From a virus, in IMG/VR virus record IMGVR_UViG_3300031772_002235, positions 1-31,814 of that record: a stretch of DNA of 31,814 bases; one strand, written 5' to 3'. Made by a program: the position numbers and the translations under genes. The stretch's first letter is position 1. Every line of letters starts with the position of its first letter. Of the stretch, positions 5,860-30,765 are shown piece by piece. Below the pieces are notes generated by a model. That model saw only the letters and a list, made by a program, of their open reading frames with translations. It did no database searches and was not told the DNA's origin.

Positions 5860-6906
5860 ATGTGTGCATCGCCGCAAAAAGAAAATGGATTTACCCCAAT
5901 AGCGCATGAAATATTAGAAGCACTCGCAAGAACAAAATTAACTACGCTAGAATCACAAGCTATATTTTTGATCTTGCGTAATACATACGGTTATAAGAGA
6001 AAAGTTTGGCAGATCAAGAAATGGAAAGTATTTGAAGATTTCGGTATTAATAAATGTTTGGTTAAAGAAACATTATTCAAATTAGCCGAAAGGCAAATAA
6101 TTGAATTGGATTGGAAGCAGAAAGAAATAGTATTCCAAAAAGATTATGAACAATGGCAAAAGATTGTACCTCGTCAAGCAATACGAGAACGAATATTAGA
6201 ACAAAAAGTTTGTCAGGTGACAAACAATAAAGTTTGTCAAGCGACAAACTTTCCTAATCACAAAGATAAAGAAGTTTGTCAGGTGACAAACAATAAAGTT
6301 TGTCAGGCGACAAACTCAAAGTTTGTCACTGGACAAACTCAAGTTTGTCAGGTGACAAACTCGACCCCCTCTAACCCCGCACTATCATTAGCGTTGCCAG
6401 ACCTTAGAGATAACTTAGATATAGATCTAAATATAGATCTAAGAGATATATCTATTTCTAAGGATCCAAGTACTGGTTATGATAAAAAAGTAAAAAAAAA
6501 TAATAATTATGAAAAAACTTGCAAGCTGATACAGACCAAATTCAATCAGTTCACAATACAGTCAAAACCTATAAAAGACGCCTTAATAAAAATATCGGAG
6601 TATCCAGAGGAACAGCAGGTTGCGGTATTAGAAAAAGGCAGTCTCGAATCTAATCAGCAGAAGATCGTATCATACATGCTATATGGATTAGAGCAAGGGT
6701 GGTATGCCAAAAAGGAACAGCTAAAAGGTCGCTCTAATCCACTTGAATGGGTTCCTCCTAAATGGGAAGATCCGCATTTAGAACCTGAGTACCAGAAAGA
6801 GTTAGGTAATTTATTTAAGTTAGCAGGAATGGGTGTAGAAGGTGCGCAAGAACAAATGAATCAACTTATAGAGGATTATAAAAATGGCAAGTGGAATAAG
6901 ATTTGA
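5860..6906 (+). CDS. Phage replication initiator (O-like) with origin iterons in the gene
   Basis: A 348-residue protein. Residues 9-110 resemble the Phage_rep_O N-terminal winged helix: the GFTPIAHEILEALARTKLTTLESQAIFLILRNTYGYKRK pattern (broken here by position: 10-48), then an LVKETLFKLAERQIIEL recognition helix. It should bind the origin and recruit helicase. Residues about 116-167 are repeats of VCQVTN and VCQATN, encoded by six palindromic DNA iterons at 6208-6360. A polar, low-complexity linker follows, and then a C-terminal region that probably contacts the helicase, ending in a 23-base overlap with dnaB. The start ATG 5860 has GGTGG at 5848-5852. The layout matches lambda O, where the origin lies inside the initiator gene. 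Confidence 0.82.
   Translation: MCASPQKENGFTPIAHEILEALARTKLTTLESQAIFLILRNTYGYKRKVWQIKKWKVFEDFGINKCLVKETLFKLAERQIIELDWKQKEIVFQKDYEQWQKIVPRQAIRERILEQKVCQVTNNKVCQATNFPNHKDKEVCQVTNNKVCQATNSKFVTGQTQVCQVTNSTPSNPALSLALPDLRDNLDIDLNIDLRDISISKDPSTGYDKKVKKNNNYEKTCKLIQTKFNQFTIQSKPIKDALIKISEYPEEQQVAVLEKGSLESNQQKIVSYMLYGLEQGWYAKKEQLKGRSNPLEWVPPKWEDPHLEPEYQKELGNLFKLAGMGVEGAQEQMNQLIEDYKNGKWNKI
6208..6360. repeat. Six palindromic iterons: probable replication origin
   Basis: Six 18-bp sites of the form GTTTGTC-N4-GACAAAC occur at 6208-6225, 6232-6249, 6274-6291, 6298-6315, 6321-6338 and 6343-6360. All twelve arms are perfect; only the central four bases vary (AGGT, AAGC, AGGT, AGGC, ACTG, AGGT). Start-to-start spacings are 24, 42, 24, 23 and 22. 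They lie inside the initiator gene, upstream of an A+T-rich tract. This is the arrangement of the lambda origin, so these are probably the initiator's own binding sites. Confidence 0.85.
6405..6530. other. A+T-rich tract beside iterons, possible unwinding element
   Basis: Starting about 45 bases after the last iteron, the sequence becomes strongly A+T-rich, with repeated ATAGATCTAA-like blocks (around 6420-6452) and a long A run followed by AATAATAATTATG near 6487-6511. In lambda-type origins the duplex opens at such a tract next to the iterons. It encodes a low-complexity Asp/Ile/Lys/Asn linker of the initiator, consistent with selection on DNA rather than protein. Confidence 0.55.
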
Positions 6907-8659: not shown

Positions 8660-8798
8660 ACGCAAGTTTGTAGCTCTGTGGTCTGCCATTAAAAGTTCTG
8701 AGGGTAGGAACGGTGTGGCAGACTTAAAAACCTTTTCCAACAATCTCGATGCGTCTCTAACAGGAGCAATCCTGTATTACTCTGAAAGGAGTTTTTTT
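8660..8798 (+). ncRNA. HEARO / IscB omega RNA (candidate)
   Basis: IscB nucleases use an omega RNA encoded just upstream of their gene (the HEARO RNA class). Here GTCTGCCA (8681-8688) and TGGCAGAC (8716-8723) form a perfect 8-bp closing stem, and ACAGGA-GCAA-TCCTGT (8760-8775) forms a hairpin with a GNRA tetraloop. That is followed by CTGAAAGGAG, which also serves as the ribosome site of iscB. The hairpin-then-GAAAGGAG ending is a feature I associate with this class. The guide would be the roughly 16 bases before 8681. The 5' limit is approximate, and 8602-8660 shows nothing I can identify. Confidence 0.75.
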
Positions 8799-10028
8799 GT
8801 GGTATATATAATTTCAAAAACAGGTAAACCATTAATGCCGACCAAAAGGCTAGGTAGAGTCAGACACTTGTTAAAAGACGGTCTGGCTAAGGTTGTGCAG
8901 AGAACACCATTCACGATCCAACTACTTTACGAGAGTGAGGAATATACTCAACCAATAACGCTTGGAATAGATAGTGGCTACCAGAATATAGGAGTATCAG
9001 TTGTAACAGAAAAAGAAGAGGTTTTTAGTGCAGAAGTGAAACTAAGAACCGATATAATTAAGCTCAATTCTGAGAGAAGGGCATATCGAAGAACGAGACG
9101 TAACCGCAAGACTTGGCATCGTAAACTGAGATTCCTTAATCGTAAAAAGGACAAGGGCTGGTTAGCTCCTTCTATACAACACAAGATTGATTCTCATATC
9201 AAGTTGGTGGATATGGTAAAACGGATTCTCCCGATAACAAAGATTAATGTTGAGGTCGCTTCTTTTGACATACAAAAGATAAAGAATCCTGATATAGAGG
9301 GCGTGAATTATCAGAATGGTGCACAGTTGGGATTTTGGAATGTCAGAGAATATGTCCTTCACCGAGACGGACATATTTGTCGGCACTGCAAGGGTAAATC
9401 TGGAGATAAGATACTTAATGTTCATCATCTAAAATCCAGACAGACTGGTGGCGATAGACCAGAAAATTTGATTACGTTATGCTCTAACTGTCATCAACTT
9501 GTATCAAAGGGAAAGTTAAAACTAAACATAAAGGTTTCTAGCGGGTTGAAGGCAGAGACTTTTATGACGATGATTAGATGGCGTATTGTTAATCTATTGA
9601 GACAAACAAATACTAATGTCTCACATACTTATGGCTATTTGACTAAATGTAAACGTATAGCGTTTGGTATATCAAAAAGTCACGTAAACGATGCCTTTGT
9701 AATAGCCTGCGGTACGATTCAACAACGTATGGATGGGTATGCCATGCAACAGGTGCGAAAGTGCAACCGCAAGCTCTATAAAGGTATACGAAGTCATATT
9801 AAGAATACAGCACCTCGATTGGTGTTTGGTTTTCAACGTTTTGATAAGGTATTGTGGAAAGGTATTGAGTGCTTTGTATTCGGTAGAAGGACTCGTGGGT
9901 ATTTTGATATACGGCGTCTTGACGGTACAAAGTTGAATACTGATGTTAAATATACAGAATTAACATTGTTAGAAACATTTAGAACATTTTTAACAGAAAG
10001 GAAAGTCGGCAATTCCTCACCCGCATGA
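8799..10028 (+). CDS. iscB: IscB RNA-guided DNA nuclease
   Basis: A 409-residue IscB, the family from which Cas9 derives. From the GTG at 8799 (GAAAGGAG at 8784-8791) the protein begins with the PLMP domain (SKTGKPLMPTKRLGRVRHLL, residues 6-25). Then come RuvC-I LGIDSGYQ with D58, an arginine-rich bridge helix RRAYRRTRRNRK (93-104), RuvC-II NVEVASFD with E152, and an HNH domain (CRHC at 194-197, VHH with H209/H210, GGDRPENL, LCSNCH). RuvC-III SHVNDA contains D298, and the C-terminal region is basic. All catalytic residues are present, so it should cut both strands. The frame is open upstream of 8799, but that part lies in the RNA. It sits between dnaB and dnaN. Confidence 0.95.
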   Translation: MVYIISKTGKPLMPTKRLGRVRHLLKDGLAKVVQRTPFTIQLLYESEEYTQPITLGIDSGYQNIGVSVVTEKEEVFSAEVKLRTDIIKLNSERRAYRRTRRNRKTWHRKLRFLNRKKDKGWLAPSIQHKIDSHIKLVDMVKRILPITKINVEVASFDIQKIKNPDIEGVNYQNGAQLGFWNVREYVLHRDGHICRHCKGKSGDKILNVHHLKSRQTGGDRPENLITLCSNCHQLVSKGKLKLNIKVSSGLKAETFMTMIRWRIVNLLRQTNTNVSHTYGYLTKCKRIAFGISKSHVNDAFVIACGTIQQRMDGYAMQQVRKCNRKLYKGIRSHIKNTAPRLVFGFQRFDKVLWKGIECFVFGRRTRGYFDIRRLDGTKLNTDVKYTELTLLETFRTFLTERKVGNSSPA

Positions 10029-11519: not shown

Positions 11520-12365
11520 ATGTCAGAAATTGCATTACTTGAAAATAATGATTATTATCCAGAGCTTCTAAAAGAATGTATGCAAGCTTACGAACCGATA
11601 GAGAATGCGAAGTGGCTGCTTATTCTTGGATATTTCAAAGTAGGAAACACTATATTGGAGTATATGCGTCAAGGTAAGATTAAGAGCGAGTATGGTAATT
11701 CGACAATGGTACGGTTACAGGAAGATATGAGAAAAGCAGGACACCCTATGGACATTTACCGTGCAGTGCAACATGCTAAGTTATTTTTGACAGAGGAGAA
11801 GCTGATACTTTACTACAAGGAGAATCCGGGTTGTACATGGACATTTATTCGAGAGAACGTTCTCCCGAAGGCTACTGATCATCCTGAACGCTATGGTGGT
11901 GTGGAAAATGTAGCTAACGAGGTTATGAATAAAGTAGAGAAGTTGGGTTTGGAACTTGAGGAATTGCGGGTGATGATTCATAACGAGGACGTGCCTCTGG
12001 AGACAAGAGAGGAAGCAGTTGGTGTTATGCAGAAAGCTTTTGAGGTTATGGGGGAACTGTCGGAAACTAGATATTTGCCGAAGACTAAAATTGAACGCAG
12101 TCTTGGTTATCTTGATTATCTGCATGGTTTCCCCTGTATGATATGCAACAAAACTCCAGTTGACGCTCATCATGTTGAGAAAGCAGGGGTGGGGTTAAAA
12201 GGCAGCGATTATATATCGGTTCCATTATGTAGAGAGCATCACGATCAGATCGAGGAACTTGGGTGCGATAGTTTTGAGAGGCTTCACGTGGTAGATTTTT
12301 ATGAATATATTTGTAAGTATCTAACTACATACATTCAATTATTGGAACAGGGGCGAAATGGCTGA
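11520..12365 (+). CDS. HNH (DUF968-like) nuclease-type protein with helical N-terminus
   Basis: A 281-residue protein. The first 190 residues are helical (KWLLILGYFKVGNTILEYM; YGNSTMVRLQEDM; HPMDIYRAVQHAKLFL) and vaguely resemble a DUF1016-type or ParB-helix segment. Residues about 200-270 form a DUF968/NinX-like HNH domain: CMICNKTPVDAHHVEKAG, then SVPLCREHHDQIEELG, giving two metal-binding Cys pairs or Cys/His pairs and the catalytic His. Such proteins are thought to cut branched or single-stranded recombination intermediates. The ATG at 11520 follows AAAGGAAA. The end overlaps the next gene by 8 bases. Confidence 0.7.
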   Translation: MSEIALLENNDYYPELLKECMQAYEPIENAKWLLILGYFKVGNTILEYMRQGKIKSEYGNSTMVRLQEDMRKAGHPMDIYRAVQHAKLFLTEEKLILYYKENPGCTWTFIRENVLPKATDHPERYGGVENVANEVMNKVEKLGLELEELRVMIHNEDVPLETREEAVGVMQKAFEVMGELSETRYLPKTKIERSLGYLDYLHGFPCMICNKTPVDAHHVEKAGVGLKGSDYISVPLCREHHDQIEELGCDSFERLHVVDFYEYICKYLTTYIQLLEQGRNG

Positions 12366-12912
12366 AACGACTGCCCGTGTATTCCCACGGAAAACAAATT
12401 TAACGCCAACTGATGAAAATGCCTATGTTGGTCCGCCTGATTTGCTGACACCGCATTATGACGAAGTGCGTATAAGTGTTACTTTTACTTATGATAAATC
12501 TTATGCAGAACAGTTGGCGGATCAATGGAATCTTTATGCAGACAAGATATTGCTTGGCGGGATTGCTTATGGTGACGCTGGAACAGTATTTACTCCGAGA
12601 GAATACGTTAAGTTTGGTGGGGTTATGACCAGCCGGGGATGCCCTAATGCCTGTTTTTTCTGTGATGTACCTGATAGGGAAGGTGATATTCGAGAGTTGC
12701 CCATAACAATGGGGTGGAATTTATTGGATTCCAACATTCTTGCATGTTCTGAAGAACATATCAGGGCAGTATTTGAAATGTTCAAGGTATTTGACACACT
12801 CCCACGACTAAAGCTCGTGGGATTCTGGATTCAAGCAGAGATAGCCAACATTTCTATTGGACTTACATCTCCTAGCCCAAGAGTTGATGCCCCAACTCTT
12901 AATATATTATAG
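12358..12912 (+). pseudogene. Radical SAM gene interrupted by the IS200/IS605 element
   Basis: From ATG 12358 the frame encodes about 144 native residues and then runs into the IS at 12791, ending at 12912. The native part has the radical SAM cluster motif C-x3-C-x2-C in SRGCPNACFFCDVP (residues about 93-106), which binds the [4Fe-4S] cluster that cleaves S-adenosylmethionine. GVMTSRGCPNACFFCDVP resembles phage radical SAM proteins that are normally much longer. Removing the IS joins the frame to CKFGGRA and a stop at 14505-14507, a 151-residue protein whose TGA overlaps the next GTG start. Even the uninterrupted gene would lack the usual C-terminal half, so it may already have been a remnant. 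Confidence 0.7.
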
Positions 12913-12960
12913 CTGGCGTTGCGGTCTCTGTCGTGCAATGTTGCACATTCAGGACAACGC
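12771..12960 (-). ncRNA. TnpB omega (right-end) RNA and guide, approximate limits
   Basis: TnpB works with an RNA made from the tnpB 3' end and the transposon right end, whose last bases come from the flanking DNA and act as guide. In RNA orientation this region has stems AAGAGTTG/CAACTCTT (12900-12893 with 12886-12879), CCAATA/TGTTGG (12860-12855 with 12850-12845) and the right-end hairpin (12821-12801), then TCAA at 12791. The guide would be the 20 or so bases of flank (12790 down to about 12771), i.e. the pre-insertion radical SAM sequence. The 5' limit is not visible. Confidence 0.7.
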
Positions 12961-13967
12961 CATTCTCGTTCTTTTAGTTCTAGGTCTTTATAGATATAAC
13001 CACAGACAGAACAAGTCTTAGACGAAGGTTCAAAACGACCAATGCAGAATATAGTTTTACCTTTAACTGACGATAGATACTTGAGTTTCAGCATGAACGA
13101 ATAGAAACCAAGATCGCATATCTTTTTACCCCAAAGCATTTGCATTGCCTTGATATTGAGGTTCTCAAAGAACATGAAATCATATTTGTCAGTTAATTCG
13201 TTAGCTAGTTTCCAGTGGAAGTCAGACCGTTGGTTAGCGATTCGTTTGTGTAGTCGTTCCAGACTCTTACGTGCTTTGCGTCTGTTATTAGAATGTCGCT
13301 GTTTCTTTGATAGTTTGCGGTTAGCCTTGCGAACTGCGTTACTGTTCTGGTGGAAAAACAAAGGAGATTCTATATCATTATCATTGGACGCTGTTAGAAA
13401 TGTTTTGAGACCAAAATCAAACCCGACAATTTCACCTGTGCGTGGTGCGGTTCTAGTCTCAACAAAATCCGTCACAATGTGGATATAAATATCCCCAAGT
13501 TTATCACGTTTGACTGTGATAGTTTTTACGTTACCTTGTATGTCTTGAGATTTGAAATACTTGAATATTTTGTTACCAATCTTGATTTTGTTATCTTCAA
13601 GCAGTTTATATCCTGCTTGTTTCAGTGTGAATGATTTATAATTTCTGCGTTTCTTAAAGTTAGGAGTTCCTGACTTGATTCCGTGCTTCTGATTCCTAAA
13701 GAATAGCTTGTAGGCTTTGTCAATTCTGTCTGCTATATCCTGTATTGCTTGAGAACCAAGTTGATTCCAGTGAGAATATTTATCTAATTTCTTGAGTTTT
13801 GTCAGGTGCTTTTGTAGTGAATAGGCGTTCAGAGATTTCTTATACATCCGATAATATCGTTTATGCAAAGCAATACAATGATTGTAGATTTCACCAGCAA
13901 CCGATATTTGGTTATGGAGATACCTGTTCTTTTTGGAATTGTAGATTTTGAAACAAAAGGTTTTCAC
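12831..13967 (-). CDS. tnpB: TnpB RNA-guided nuclease
   Basis: A 378-residue TnpB, a normal length for a compact intact member. It has a helical and WED-like N-terminal half, RuvC-I VGFDFGLK (D184), RuvC-II FFENLNIKAM (E268), a four-cysteine zinc finger (C319, C322, C338, C341) and RuvC-III HDRDRNASYNI (345-355). The C-terminal tail GASTLGLGDVSP is encoded by the omega RNA region. All catalytic residues are present. The GTG start at 13967 overlaps the TGA of tnpA (GTGA), which indicates coupled translation. The protein should cut the empty donor site next to a TTAC-like motif using the right-end guide and so favour element retention. Confidence 0.95.
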   Translation of the reverse strand: MKTFCFKIYNSKKNRYLHNQISVAGEIYNHCIALHKRYYRMYKKSLNAYSLQKHLTKLKKLDKYSHWNQLGSQAIQDIADRIDKAYKLFFRNQKHGIKSGTPNFKKRRNYKSFTLKQAGYKLLEDNKIKIGNKIFKYFKSQDIQGNVKTITVKRDKLGDIYIHIVTDFVETRTAPRTGEIVGFDFGLKTFLTASNDNDIESPLFFHQNSNAVRKANRKLSKKQRHSNNRRKARKSLERLHKRIANQRSDFHWKLANELTDKYDFMFFENLNIKAMQMLWGKKICDLGFYSFMLKLKYLSSVKGKTIFCIGRFEPSSKTCSVCGYIYKDLELKEREWRCPECATLHDRDRNASYNILRVGASTLGLGDVSPIEMLAISA

Positions 13968-14365
13968 TGGTTCTTTTGATCCTCAATGTATTTTTTAACA
14001 GTACTTTCGGAAATATGACCAACGCTTTCAATATAATAGCTTCGAGTCCAAAGAGTTGGTACTCTTGTTTTTAGCTGTGAAAATTCTTGTCTAAGAATCC
14101 TTGATGTGTATCCTTTGAGTTGTTGAACAATGAAATGTGGACTATCAACAGGAGATGATTTGATGAACAAATGCACATGGTCAGGCATTATTTCGCAAGT
14201 TTCGATTGTCAAACCAATTTCATCGGATTTTTGGTATAACAATTCTCTAAGGCGTGTTTCAACTGAATTAGTCAACAGTTTTCGCCGATACTTAGGACAC
14301 CAGATAATGTGGTATCCTAGATTATAAACAGCTTTATTACTTGTAGTCCAACGTTTATTTTCCAT
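13964..14365 (-). CDS. tnpA: IS200/IS605 TnpA transposase (Y1 HUH)
   Basis: A 133-residue single-tyrosine HUH transposase that excises and inserts single-stranded DNA at hairpin ends. It has YHIIWCPKYRRKLL near the start, the HUH pair H63 and H65 in MPDHVHLFIK, TLWTRSYYIESVGHISE, and the catalytic tyrosine in KKYIEDQ (Y126). The length is normal. No ribosome site precedes the ATG at 14365; instead a perfect promoter ends eight bases upstream, so the message should be almost leaderless. It may also mobilise the two 161-bp elements and the IscB element. Confidence 0.95.
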   Translation of the reverse strand: MENKRWTTSNKAVYNLGYHIIWCPKYRRKLLTNSVETRLRELLYQKSDEIGLTIETCEIMPDHVHLFIKSSPVDSPHFIVQQLKGYTSRILRQEFSQLKTRVPTLWTRSYYIESVGHISESTVKKYIEDQKNQ

Positions 14366-14372
14366 GCTATTA

Positions 14373-14401
14373 ATTATAGCATAATGTTATTTAATTGTCA
14401 A
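14373..14401 (-). promoter_or_regulatory. Consensus sigma-70 promoter of tnpA
   Basis: On the - strand, TTGACA (14401-14396) and TATAAT (14378-14373) are separated by exactly 17 bases, a perfect consensus promoter. Transcription would begin about 14366, one base or so before the tnpA ATG at 14365. An inverted repeat GCTAT-TAATT-ATAGC overlaps the -10 box and could allow regulation. Confidence 0.85.
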
Positions 14402-14859: not shown

Positions 14860-15030
14860 ATGAGAATCACTAGGGTAGACATATCGGAAAGGATTCATAT
14901 TTTGGACGAGTACAATTGGGATTTGGAGAATTTGATTGACAAAATAATCGAATTGCAGACTGAGAATGATGTGTTACAAGACAAAATTTGGGGACTAGAA
15001 AACAGGATTGCCGAATTTGAAAAGGAATAA
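14860..15030 (+). CDS. Small coiled-coil protein, 56 aa
   Basis: The ATG at 14860 has GAGGGGG six bases upstream. The product has a heptad-like pattern (LDEYNWDLENLIDKIIELQTEND broken at 15-37, then VLQDKIWGLENRIAEFEKE), so it should form a short coiled coil, probably a dimer. The stop is directly before the ATG of the methyltransferase at 15032, whose AAAGGA lies inside this gene. It may be a methyltransferase partner or a small regulator. No family recognised. Confidence 0.65.
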   Translation: MRITRVDISERIHILDEYNWDLENLIDKIIELQTENDVLQDKIWGLENRIAEFEKE

Positions 15031-15031
15031 T

Positions 15032-17341
15032 ATGTTTGATTGGGTAGATACAATGGTTGCGGGTGATACAAGACAGGTACTCAGAGGATTGCCTGATGGA
15101 TGTATATCAGCTTGCGTTACCTCGCCCCCTTATTTTAATAAACGTCTTTTTTCAGTCCAACCTCTGCTATGGGGGGGCGATCCTGAATGTGACCATGACT
15201 TTTCATTAGCTACAATTGGTGGGGATTTCAGAGTTAATAAAGTAGGTGCTACTACAACGGTAGGTGCGAATAAGGCTATGGCAGATTGGGCAGAGAAGAA
15301 GCATGGGAATGAATACCGAAACCATTTAGGTCCGCTTGCTAGTCCTTATGCCGAAGGTGTTGCGCAGGGACATTATATACATCAAGGCTCAACTCAGTCT
15401 GATATTGTTTCTGGTGGTCAGATTACGGACGGATTTGTAGAGGAAGCGTATTGTATTAAGTGTGGATGCTGGCGGGGATCGCTAGGGAATGAACCCAACA
15501 TCAGCCAATTTATTTCAAACCTTATGGAGATTTTTTGCGAGGTATATCGGGTGCTTCGTGCTGACGGATCATGTTGGGTGAATCTTGGAGATACTTTTTG
15601 GGGTGGCGGGCATGGTGGGAATACTTTATATTCTGCTGCGGATGGTGACGTTAAGTCATTGAAGCAAGGTAATTCTAGTGTCTATGTACCTACTGTCAAG
15701 TGGGGGAATGAGTATCCTAATAAGTGCTTGTGTATGATACCTGAGAGATTTGCGATAGCAATGCAGGAACATGGTTGGATAGTACGTCAAGTGATTGCAT
15801 GGACGAAAACTAACAGTATGCCGGAAGCGGTCACGGATCGATTTTCAAGTAGCTGGGAGTATATCTATCATTTCGTGAAGCAAGGTAAATATTTCTTTGA
15901 TCAGCAATTTGAGCCACAAGGAAGTGATACACATTCAAAAGGCTTGAAATTAGAGAATCCTGTAAAAGACAGAGGTAGTTATAAAGATTGGGCTAAATAC
16001 ACTCCTGTGACTTATCTTGCCAATGGTCGTAATCAAAGAAATATTTTTAACGTCAATACCAGTCCGTGTGATTGGGAATTTTGTAATGATTGCAAGAGGC
16101 TATATGTCAGGGCAGAACGTAGAGAAATCAAGATTGAGAAATGGACTAATGATAAGGGTATTGAGAGAAGAAAGCGAATCTGTGTTTGTGGGTCATCAAC
16201 TGGGTGGATAGACCATTTCGCTTCATATTCAACTAGACTAATCGAACCATTGATCAAGGCTAGTGTTCCAAAAGAGATTTGCTGCAAATGCGGAAAACCT
16301 AGAGAGGCTATATATGAAAAGACTGGTGAGGTAATTCAACAACGTTGGTCAAAAACGTCAAAATTGGCGGAGTTACAAGGTTTGTCTGAAAAAAGTGGAA
16401 TATATCGTCAAGGTGTATTAGAAAAGAAATTATCTGGGTACAGTGATTGTGGATGTAAGGATTATTATTGTAACAACTGCAAAACGTTCTTGACAAAAAA
16501 CGTAATAAATAGTATAATTACCATGAAAGGAGATGGTGATTATGCCATTCAAGGACATAGAGAAGCGCAAAGTATATCTGAGGAACTGGGCAAGAAATCA
16601 TTATCAAAAAATGAAGGAATCGGGTGCGGAGATGTCCGACCTCAAAGGTTACAAGGAAAAGGATTGCTTAATTTGTGGGATGAAATTTTATGCAAGAAAG
16701 ACGCAACAGACTTGTTCGAGGAGTTGCGGAGCAAAATGGCAGGTATTGAAAGGAAATCACAACAGTTGGAATTTGAAAGGGGACAAAAATCCACATTGGA
16801 AGGGGGGGAGGAGACCGCACAATTCGGGTTATGTTTACATTTGGATTCCGGATCATCCATTTGCAACCAAACAGGGATATGTGATGGAGCACAGGTTGGT
16901 AATGGAAAAGTATCTAGGGAGATATTTGAACAAAAACGAGAATGTTCACCACAAGAATGGGATAAAGGACGACAACAGGATAGAGAACCTCGAAGTCCTG
17001 ACACACAACAGCCACAAGGGGCAAGTTGTATGTCCCTTTTGTCTGCAAACTTTTACGGTGAAATAGCGTGTCCTTTCTGCCTATCATCCAATATTGATAT
17101 ATTGCCTTCACCTCTTGAACCAGGTATAGGATTAGATCCGTTTATGGGATCAGGCACTACTGCGATAGAGTTGATAAGACAAGGGAAACATTACTTTGGG
17201 ATTGATCTTAATGCAGATTATGTGGGTGTGGCAAATGCCCGGTGTGAAAGAGAGAAAGAGGACCAGGCATTGCTGTTGCCGAAGAAGCAGAAGATGATTA
17301 AGACAGAGGTTATTCGGGATAGTCAATTGGAGTTTTTTTGA
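15032..17341 (+). CDS. Beta-type DNA methyltransferase, with an HNH gene nested inside
   Basis: A 769-residue reading frame for an N4-cytosine or N6-adenine methyltransferase. The catalytic motif TSPPY is at residues 30-34 and the S-adenosylmethionine motif DPFMGSGTT at 702-710, followed by [15 protein letters not shown]-before-I is the beta-class order. Zinc-ribbon cysteine pairs lie between them (CIKCGC, CNDC..CVCG, CCKCG, CNNC, CPFC). Residues 503-678 are read from the same DNA as an HNH gene in the next frame and look like low-complexity linker. Without them, CNNCKTF and ACPFC could form one ribbon. The ATG at 15032 has AAAGGA upstream; an earlier in-frame codon at 15008 lacks a site. Methylation may protect phage DNA from host restriction. 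Confidence 0.85.
16490..16518 (+). promoter_or_regulatory. Consensus promoter of the nested HNH gene
   Basis: TTGACA (16490-16495) and TATAAT (16513-16518) are separated by exactly 17 bases, a perfect sigma-70 consensus, inside the methyltransferase gene. AAAGGAG (16526-16532) and the ATG at 16542 follow. The HNH gene therefore carries its own expression signals. Confidence 0.85.
16542..17066 (+). CDS. HNH homing endonuclease nested out of frame in the methyltransferase gene
   Basis: A 174-residue free-standing HNH endonuclease. Residues 42-62 hold a four-cysteine zinc motif (CLIC..CSRSC). The catalytic domain is at 113-158: [17 protein letters not shown], then [17 protein letters not shown] with H136/H137 and N149, and a final H155. 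It ends in [11 protein letters not shown], which mirrors CPFCLSSN of the methyltransferase just downstream. ATG 16542 is chosen because AAAGGAG is nine bases away; an ATG at 16533 abuts that site. The enzyme should cut methyltransferase alleles that lack the insertion and so copy itself between phages. Confidence 0.92.
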
Positions 17342-19989: not shown

Positions 19990-20000
19990 GAGGTTTGTAT

Positions 20001-21488
20001 ATGTCTGAATTTAACAGAGTGATACTTGGAGATTGCCTACCTATTATGCAGGATATGGAAGATTATTCAATCTCTTTAATATTTACAGATCCGCCATACG
20101 GTCTTGGTAGTGAACTTATTATACGTCCAGATGGCAGACCTGATTACAAAAAGGCATCGGATTTTATGAATAAATGGGATATGCCAACGGGTGATTTTTG
20201 GGCGACATGGTTTAAGGAATCGTTTAGATTGCTGAAGTATGGTGGATATTGTTTGATGTTTGGCATCGATCGTCAACTTTTGCTATTCAAATACTATGCT
20301 GCGTTGGCTGGATTTCAGGAACGTCAAAGTTTATATTGGTATTTTATTTCATCGTTCCCCAAAGCTACTGATTTAAGCAACATGATAGATAGCAACTTTG
20401 GTGCGGAAAGAAATGTTGTTGGTAAAAGAAAGGTTTCTCCTTCGGATTTAGGGCAATCAAGTGGTTGGAATTATACGGATACAAGTTCTGGTGGATATAA
20501 TTATACTGCACCATCAACTGGTCTTGCAAAGAAATATGATGGTTATAAATATTCAGTATCCCCACTAAAGCAAACTAATGAGACGATCATGGTATTTCAG
20601 AAGCCATATAAAACAGGGTCATGTTTGCATGATGTATTGGCTTATGAGGCTGGCGATATGGAATGTGGTTGTGGAATGCTGGATATTGATAGTGGTAGAG
20701 TGTCTGTCGATCCTATAAGAGACAAATCGCAATTAAGAACAATGAATCGCAATAAAAAGACTTGTAATGATGGTTGGGGAATGAATAACAATATGGCTGA
20801 TATTCCGCAAGTTGTAAACGAATCGGGCCGTTATCCTTCGCAGCTGTTTATTGATGGCCGTACTGCTGAAATACTTGATAGTCAAAGCGGAGTGCTTAAA
20901 TCAGGATTTATGAAAGCAGGACAATCGTACGAACAAGGCACAGGGCAAAATGTTTATGGTGATATGATAGGTAAAACCAAAAGAGATACTTATGGCGATA
21001 GTGGTGGTTGTAGCAGGATTCTTCATCAATGTGAATACGAATTTGGTGAATATGACTTATATTTTTATTGTCCGAAAGTAAGTAAAAAAGAAAGAAATGC
21101 AGGATTAGATGATTTCCCTGAGAAAGAGATTGCGTATTCTGAATATAGAGAAAATTATGATACAACAAAAAGTTGGGTTTCGGAATATCCCGATGGTACT
21201 CCAAGACCTATGAATGATGCAAAGAACAATCATCCTACCCTTAAACCAGTTTCCTTAATAACCCGCATTCTGAAACTGTTTACTACACCAGATACACAAA
21301 TAATATTGGATCCTTTTCTCGGAGCAGGAAGTACCGCAATCGCTTGTAAAAGGCTAAATAGAGACTATATCGGAATTGAGATAAATCCTGAGTATGTAAA
21401 TATAGCAAATAAACGTATAGAAGCAGAACAATGTCAACTGGAGTTACAATTAACAAATGGAGTTACAATTAACAAATGGATAAAATAA
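20001..21488 (+). CDS. Beta-type DNA methyltransferase (DPPY)
   Basis: A 495-residue N6-adenine (or N4-cytosine) methyltransferase. DPPYGLG is at residues 30-36 in the catalytic motif, and DPFLGAGSTAIAC near 439-451 is the S-adenosylmethionine motif, then DYIGIEINPEYVNIANKR. HPTLKPVSLITRIL precedes it, a typical feature of the class. A roughly 200-residue central insertion, rich in Gly, Tyr and Asn, probably recognises DNA. The ATG at 20001 has AGAGG upstream. A 19-bp tandem duplication at the very 3' end has lengthened the C-terminus. It is unlike the methyltransferase at 15032, so the phage may methylate two different sites. Confidence 0.9.
   Translation: MSEFNRVILGDCLPIMQDMEDYSISLIFTDPPYGLGSELIIRPDGRPDYKKASDFMNKWDMPTGDFWATWFKESFRLLKYGGYCLMFGIDRQLLLFKYYAALAGFQERQSLYWYFISSFPKATDLSNMIDSNFGAERNVVGKRKVSPSDLGQSSGWNYTDTSSGGYNYTAPSTGLAKKYDGYKYSVSPLKQTNETIMVFQKPYKTGSCLHDVLAYEAGDMECGCGMLDIDSGRVSVDPIRDKSQLRTMNRNKKTCNDGWGMNNNMADIPQVVNESGRYPSQLFIDGRTAEILDSQSGVLKSGFMKAGQSYEQGTGQNVYGDMIGKTKRDTYGDSGGCSRILHQCEYEFGEYDLYFYCPKVSKKERNAGLDDFPEKEIAYSEYRENYDTTKSWVSEYPDGTPRPMNDAKNNHPTLKPVSLITRILKLFTTPDTQIILDPFLGAGSTAIACKRLNRDYIGIEINPEYVNIANKRIEAEQCQLELQLTNGVTINKWIK
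21440..21479 (+). repeat. 19-bp tandem duplication at the methyltransferase 3' end
   Basis: GGAGTTACAATTAACAAAT occurs twice in a row (21440-21458 and 21459-21477). Because 19 is not a multiple of three, the second copy is read in another frame. With one copy the gene would end ...LTNG followed by TAA. The duplication looks recent since both units are identical. Confidence 0.9.
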
Positions 21489-26363: not shown

Positions 26364-26515
26364 GTTTCAAATTGAAACCACTGGCGCTGAAAAAAAGAAG
26401 GGTGTCGTTTCAAATTGAAACCCTTAAATTGACCAGTGGTTTCAAAATGAAACCTCTCTGGTTTCAAATTGAAACCACTCGTGTTTCAAAATGAAACCCG
26501 AAAATTGATTGAAAC
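26364..26515. repeat. Five 15-bp palindromes (GTTTCAAA[T/A]TGAAAC) plus a half site
   Basis: Sites lie at 26364-26378, 26407-26421, 26439-26453, 26461-26475 and 26483-26497, with a half site at about 26509-26515. All match GTTTCAAWTTGAAAC or GTTTCAAAATGAAAC with identical GTTTC/GAAAC arms. Start-to-start distances are 43, 32, 22 and 22 bases, close to 4, 3, 2 and 2 helical turns, so all sites face the same side of the DNA. They fill most of the 273-base gap after the winged-helix gene. The remainder (26516-26610) is A+T-rich with no clear signal except AAGGGGG before the next gene. Confidence 0.88.
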
Positions 26516-30580: not shown

Positions 30581-30604
30581 AGAAGGAGGGAGATAAAAAG
30601 TTAT

Positions 30605-30765
30605 CTCTCTTTTAATTTGAATACCCCTAGCTTCAGCTATGGGGATGAAAAATTTAAGAGTTGGGGCATCAACTCTTGGGCTAGGAGATGTAAGTCCATT
30701 GCAAACAATGGCTATCTCTGCTTGAATCCAGAATCCCCTGCCTTTAGGCATGGGGAGTATGTCAA
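30605..30765 (+). mobile_element. 161-bp non-autonomous IS200/IS605-type element (copy 2)
   Basis: Identical in length to the copy at 1071 and different at two bases only. The target is TTAT (30601-30604), left hairpin 30624-30644, right hairpin 30735-30755, and right end TCAA (30762-30765). The left hairpin starts 19 bases in, as in the full IS. The tnpB-derived core with its CCATTG/CAATGG hairpin (30696-30711) is present. It lies in the loop of a larger inverted repeat after the capsid gene. The short distance in sequence implies recent spread in this phage. Confidence 0.92.

Follow-up and report, generated by a model that had tools for sequence, protein, structure and literature searches.

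A phage DNA methyltransferase (MTase) gene that contains a complete HNH endonuclease gene in another reading frame raises the question of how both proteins can be encoded by the same stretch, and of whether the MTase frame stays open across the inserted gene by accident or by selection. The DNA analysed, hereafter the window, consists of one IMG/VR virus record of 31,814 bases. We consider it highly probable that a mobile HNH gene occupies a tolerant loop of the MTase, with the host frame being read through and the HNH protein being expressed one frame off.

Structure of the methyltransferase gene and of the nested HNH gene

The host gene (15008-17341, + strand) comprises 777 codons with a TTG start as listed, lies in frame 2, and is free of stops across the insert. 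Its product, an N4/N6 DNA methyltransferase, was assigned to the N6_N4_Mtase family (Pfam PF01555, E 1e-29), and its motifs are ordered with motif IV TSPPY first and motif I DPFMGSGTT last. The catalytic motif IV (15119-15133, + strand), invariant in alignment A1, and the AdoMet-binding motif I (17135-17161, + strand) are located on either side of the HNH gene, as described in the initial annotation of this locus. The same phage carries a second N6_N4_Mtase gene, encoding 497 aa, at 19995-21488.

The HNH gene (16542-17066, + strand) contains 174 codons plus a stop at 17064-17066 and is displaced by one frame from the MTase; its ORF lies in frame 0, with a first ATG at 16533 and a likely start ATG at 16542, and the host frame corresponds to frame -1 of the HNH gene. 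The encoded protein contains zinc knuckles (CLICG and CPFC motifs) and matches both the HNH_3 family (Pfam PF13392, E 1.5e-12) and PHROG HNH families (E 9e-31). Both the ORFs and the PF13392 match bear out the earlier claim of an intact HNH-domain gene nested in the MTase in another frame. Two more HNH endonuclease genes, both free-standing, were observed at 8715-10028 and 11520-12365.

The probable insert (16481-17068, + strand) spans 196 codons of the loop between motif X and motif I and includes only about 60 nt outside the HNH ORF. It lies between two zinc knuckles read in the MTase frame, namely CNNC (16469-16480, + strand), directly upstream of the HNH promoter, and CPFC (17069-17080, + strand), directly downstream of the HNH stop. 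The former has counterparts in other inserted MTases (CIAC, CVSC, CVDC, CPRC, and CETC), and the latter in relatives (CPQC, CPHC, CPAC, CPTC, and CAKC). The ends given for the insert are approximate because the searches yielded neither a close uninserted allele nor any near relative of the window MTase; a search for phage relatives at the DNA level was likewise negative. A second contig (L002) is 100% identical to the window but stops at MTase residue 400, before the insert, and hence the insert in the window rests on one assembly.

The distance between motif X and motif I is 301 aa in the window vs 19-177 aa in relatives without the insert, being mostly 80-100 aa in those uninserted relatives that have a zinc ribbon. 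This variation among uninserted proteins indicates that the loop tolerates changes in length. An AlphaFold model of the MTase, built with 9 sequences, had a mean pLDDT of 44, which is too poor for judging tolerance to the insert. The MTase is predicted to be active with the insert in place.

Other repeated and mobile sequences of the window include an IS605-type TnpA/TnpB pair (12831-14401, - strand), a 165-nt direct repeat, 99% identical, whose copies (1067-1231 and 30601-30765) are 29.5 kb apart, and short clustered direct repeats, GTTTGTCAGGTGACAAAC within the helicase-loader gene (6198-6316) and GTTTCAAATTGAAAC at 26364-26491.

Selection on the host reading frame

In this arrangement, a host stop arises only from an HNH codon with T in its third position that is followed by one starting with AA, AG, or GA. 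No host-frame stops were observed within the HNH gene, as compared to the 10-17 expected (17.0 ± 2.9 with phage codon usage, 12.2 with uniform synonymous codons, and 10.3 when the HNH gene's own codons were shuffled), and zero stops were reached in 0 of 20,000 draws of each of these three null models. The remaining forward frame of the HNH gene contains 16 stops. The absence of MTase stops is thus borne out more strongly than in the initial annotation, whose estimate of about eight chance stops was too low.

Analysis of synonymous sites revealed that T is used at none of the 44 HNH codons where it would create an MTase stop, as compared to 41 of 83 elsewhere (p=2.6e-10). In a control set of 207 free-standing HNH genes, the use of T was similar at critical and other sites (37.6% vs 38.9%), and 2431 stops were observed vs 2584 expected. 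The codon test provides direct evidence of selection for an open host frame.

Recurrence of nested HNH genes

HMM scans of fetched loci identified further nested HNH genes. In total, seven independent cases, including that of the window, were found in which an HNH gene occupies the MTase loop between motifs X and I, and none of these genes contains a host-frame stop. Synonymous T was absent from the critical sites of the other six genes: L278, on a Cloacimonadota MAG contig (0/40), L277, from Methylobacterium frigidaeris (0/35), L100 (0/36), L135 (0/41), L147 (0/29), and L160 (0/31). Zinc knuckles flank both sides of the nested gene in six of the seven loci, the window among them, the exception being L100. 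When the sole requirement of the scan was that an HNH gene be flanked by MTase pieces, irrespective of openness, every such MTase was found to be open; broken MTase alleles in inserted homologs, which the initial annotation had regarded as potential counterevidence, were not detected among the loci scanned. Outer frames were also open in L204, L144, L332, and L343; these loci lack a recognisable host gene and were treated as chance.

In a poorly resolved tree of HNH proteins, the nested genes appeared at several places among the free-standing ones, the window gene being nearest to that of L278 (68% identity over 73 columns) and L147 grouping with L160. These several positions suggest repeated, independent nesting of HNH genes. 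The host-frame peptides of divergent nested genes were mostly no more similar than implied by the HNH protein, with similarity above expectation only for L147/L160 (z 3.9), L135/L160 (z 2.9), and two pairs near 2.3, and no convincing signal of selection on amino-acid composition was detected within the insert. The openness of the host frame is conserved, but its sequence is not.

HNH matches in cultured mycobacteriophages fall under genes annotated only as methyltransferase, and here the comparison of phages with and without the insert, proposed in the initial annotation, could be made: the MTase genes of MISSy, Bipolar, and Pollywog are exactly 606 nt longer than those of Murphy or Shauna1. 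Between MISSy and Bipolar the insert is 99.2% identical and the MTase flanks are 65-77% identical, indicating that the mycobacteriophage element has been recently mobile. The window element would be mobile as well, and its HNH protein would be expected to cleave uninserted alleles in a site-specific manner. It has to be noted that ShiLan, OwlsT2W, and Harley carry a frameshift near the C-terminus of their MTases; since Harley is frameshifted yet has no HNH insert, this C-terminal break is separate from the insert. Altogether, the synonymous-site test, the seven loci in an equivalent loop, and the mycobacteriophage pairs support the earlier proposal of an HNH gene that invaded a zinc-ribbon linker, with selection preserving the open host frame.

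Out-of-frame HNH genes were observed at other sites as well. In L176 (IMGVR_UViG_3300046167_000825, 899-2818), a DNA MTase contains an apparent intein (CLSEDT...FVTGN/S), which in turn harbors an out-of-frame HNH ORF (1350-2408) with 0 host-frame stops vs about 13.6-20 expected. Cylindrospermopsis phage Cr-LKS3 (L360, 2336-4315) carries an HNH insertion at the site used by the ShiLan element of mycobacteriophages, in a cyanophage gene annotated only as DNA methylase, where about 34 positions of the target profile are matched on both sides of the insert. Orf72 of Gordonia phage GAL1 (L364, 2712-3599), annotated as nucleotide kinase, contains an HNH gene out of frame and a duplicated N-terminal motif, DPVNxPxHY, with one copy on each side of the insert. 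In a Sinirhodobacter populi contig (L297, 754-2547), an HNH gene lies out of frame near the C-terminus of a phage protein with WPTPxARD-like motifs, with 0 host-frame stops vs 5.2 expected. Segments of another kind, resembling helix-turn-helix (LRERREALGLSRSAVDAALG...), are inserted in the MTase loops of several phages (L077, L043, L368, and L369). A rule by which nesting always occurs in the -1 frame, since every NNT codon has a synonymous NNC, was discarded because the mycobacteriophages and Cr-LKS3 use +1.

Promoter and hairpin of the nested gene

The perfect promoter and the AAAGGAG previously noted ahead of the HNH gene were both confirmed. The sigma-70 promoter TTGACA-N17-TATAAT (16490-16518, + strand) has no perfect counterpart elsewhere on the + strand of the window; the only other perfect TTGACA-TATAAT promoter (14373-14401, - strand) lies just upstream of TnpA. 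The Shine-Dalgarno sequence AAAGGAG (16526-16532, + strand) is located in the loop of an RNA hairpin (16512-16545, + strand) with a 13-bp stem (16512-16524/16533-16545) and the 8-nt loop GAAAGGAG, whose 5′ arm overlaps the -10 box and whose 3′ arm contains the HNH start codon. The folding energy is -15.9 kcal/mol (z -5.0), and equally low z-scores were obtained in 2 of 76 control genes.

Transcription from the HNH promoter is predicted to start near 16524-16527, and therefore the gene's own transcript should lack the 5′ arm of the hairpin, which the MTase mRNA would carry. This geometry predicts a hairpin-based switch for HNH expression. Promoter-like sequences were also found in L278 (TTGACT-N17-TATAAT) and L100 (TTGACT-N16-TATCAT), both without a strong hairpin, and in L147 the start codon is covered by a weaker hairpin. 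Nested HNH genes do not all share the strong hairpin, which is absent in L278, L100, and L277.

Alternative explanations

The open host frame could be ascribed to chance, base composition, or codon bias of the HNH gene, given the high purine content of the insert and the low number of stops in two reverse frames as well. The codon test refutes this explanation, to which we give practically no credence: shuffling the HNH gene's own synonymous codons never yielded zero stops, the avoidance of T is confined to sites that make a host stop and is absent in free-standing relatives, and the seven loci are concordant. A frame kept open for the run-through of ribosomes, avoiding transcriptional polarity so that downstream genes such as RusA are expressed, rather than for a single-chain MTase, would fit the position of the MTase in a co-directional gene run and the overlap of a few bases with the downstream ORF. 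We regard it as unlikely, in view of the intact motif I and C-terminal half of the MTase and of the loop-length variation among relatives, which fits protein tolerance; furthermore, polarity alone would equally allow re-initiation.

It is very improbable that the insert is a self-splicing intron or intein and that the host product loses it. HNH genes are commonly located in group I introns, the region folds better than shuffled sequences (z -3.0), and a related HNH lies within the apparent intein of L176, but no Rfam intron match indicative of a group I core was obtained at the insert, which is almost wholly HNH ORF, and inspection by eye revealed neither an intein N-terminal block nor a terminal HN followed by C, S, or T. 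A stop-free host frame would moreover be unnecessary for an intron. Neither signature, either of which the initial annotation had named as an outcome speaking against its reading, has turned up; the proposed route of invasion without intron or intein is supported, but not the description of the host gene as essential, as the MTase is probably not essential. Phage HNH proteins can act in packaging, and a domesticated HNH, serving as nuclease partner of the physically linked MTase in a restriction-like pair or as packaging nuclease, was also considered in place of a homing enzyme. This is quite unlikely given that nested HNH genes are scattered among free-standing ones (in the poorly resolved tree) and occupy at least two MTase families, and that the mycobacteriophage element moves between divergent methylases.

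Discussion

The reading that we favor, a mobile HNH gene within a translated loop, suggests the following course of events. A mobile HNH homing-endonuclease gene would have entered the surface loop between motifs X and I, between two zinc knuckles, without a self-splicing carrier. The MTase would be translated straight across the insert into a single longer protein with about 190 residues of meaningless, stop-free peptide, and selection for the downstream AdoMet-binding half would have purged host-frame stops at synonymous wobble positions of the HNH gene, a depletion demonstrated statistically. Translation of the HNH protein would begin at a separate start in the shifted frame, and in the window the gene has its own promoter, with a ribosome site buried in the hairpin on the long host mRNA and free on its own short mRNA; with this arrangement, as read from the sequence, collisions between HNH and MTase translation would be avoided. 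Homing into uninserted alleles would then spread the element.

The synonymous-site test reveals a selfish gene selected letter by letter for the read-through of another gene, with no splicing. The cases described here show that such nesting, so far a curiosity known from a few actinobacteriophages, also occurs in other phages and in bacterial genomes. On balance, we think that out-of-frame nesting with a purified host frame probably represents a general, recurrent homing strategy of HNH genes, used in several MTase families and sites and even in an intein, and a third one beside introns and inteins, with one stretch of the window serving as MTase coding sequence, parasite promoter, and silencing hairpin on the host mRNA. 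Many long phage methylases in current annotations may conceal nested HNH genes.

Comparison with known systems

The closest precedent is the ShiLan domain of mycobacteriophage methylases, first noted in 2023 (PMC9957025) and published in 2025 (PMC11855218), for which neither intron or intein nor methylase-frame stops were found, active homing was inferred, and a second case, Pacc40, was described (PMC11855218). Like ShiLan, whose distribution is disjunct and actively homing, the window element is a zinc-finger HNH concealed in an alternative frame of a phage MTase, with no MTase-frame stop and no detectable intron or intein. On the other hand, it resides in another MTase family, in the motif X-motif I zinc-ribbon loop instead of the TALKP/EP site, and its host frame is -1 of the HNH, as compared to +1 in ShiLan. 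For ShiLan, no ribosome site was found, leaderless GTG initiation was proposed, and HNH translation was left open (PMC11855218); the window HNH, in contrast, uses an ATG start and is equipped with a sigma-70 promoter, a Shine-Dalgarno sequence, and a hairpin of its own, which provide a testable answer to the published question of how the hidden endonuclease is expressed. The window element is a relative of ShiLan in kind, but not the same element.

Free-standing HNH genes inserted in phage genes are also known from mobE in Aeh1 nrdA and mobA in the T4 topoisomerase gene, and mobE shares the RNA hairpin over the ribosome site; in those cases, however, the insertion divides the host gene into parts that encode separate polypeptides, whereas the window MTase is a single open frame (PMC2988022). 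The hairpin logic was established for T4 I-TevI, whose ribosome site is sequestered on long host transcripts and free on the transcript from its own promoter, and similar arrangements have been reported for segB and Aeh1 mobE (PMC2988022). The geometry of hairpin and promoter in the window resembles that of I-TevI, its switch being a prediction; unlike the window HNH, I-TevI is a GIY-YIG enzyme located in a group I intron (PMC2988022). Inteins with an in-frame homing endonuclease likewise leave the host gene translatable through the insert, but the window insert has no protein-splicing blocks and its endonuclease lies in another frame. To judge from the literature consulted, the MTase family, the site, and the frame are new, as are the further cases in other phages and in bacterial genomes, the evidence of selection from synonymous sites, the promoter with a plausible expression switch, the ShiLan-site insertion in cyanophage Cr-LKS3, and an HNH gene nested out of frame inside an apparent intein.
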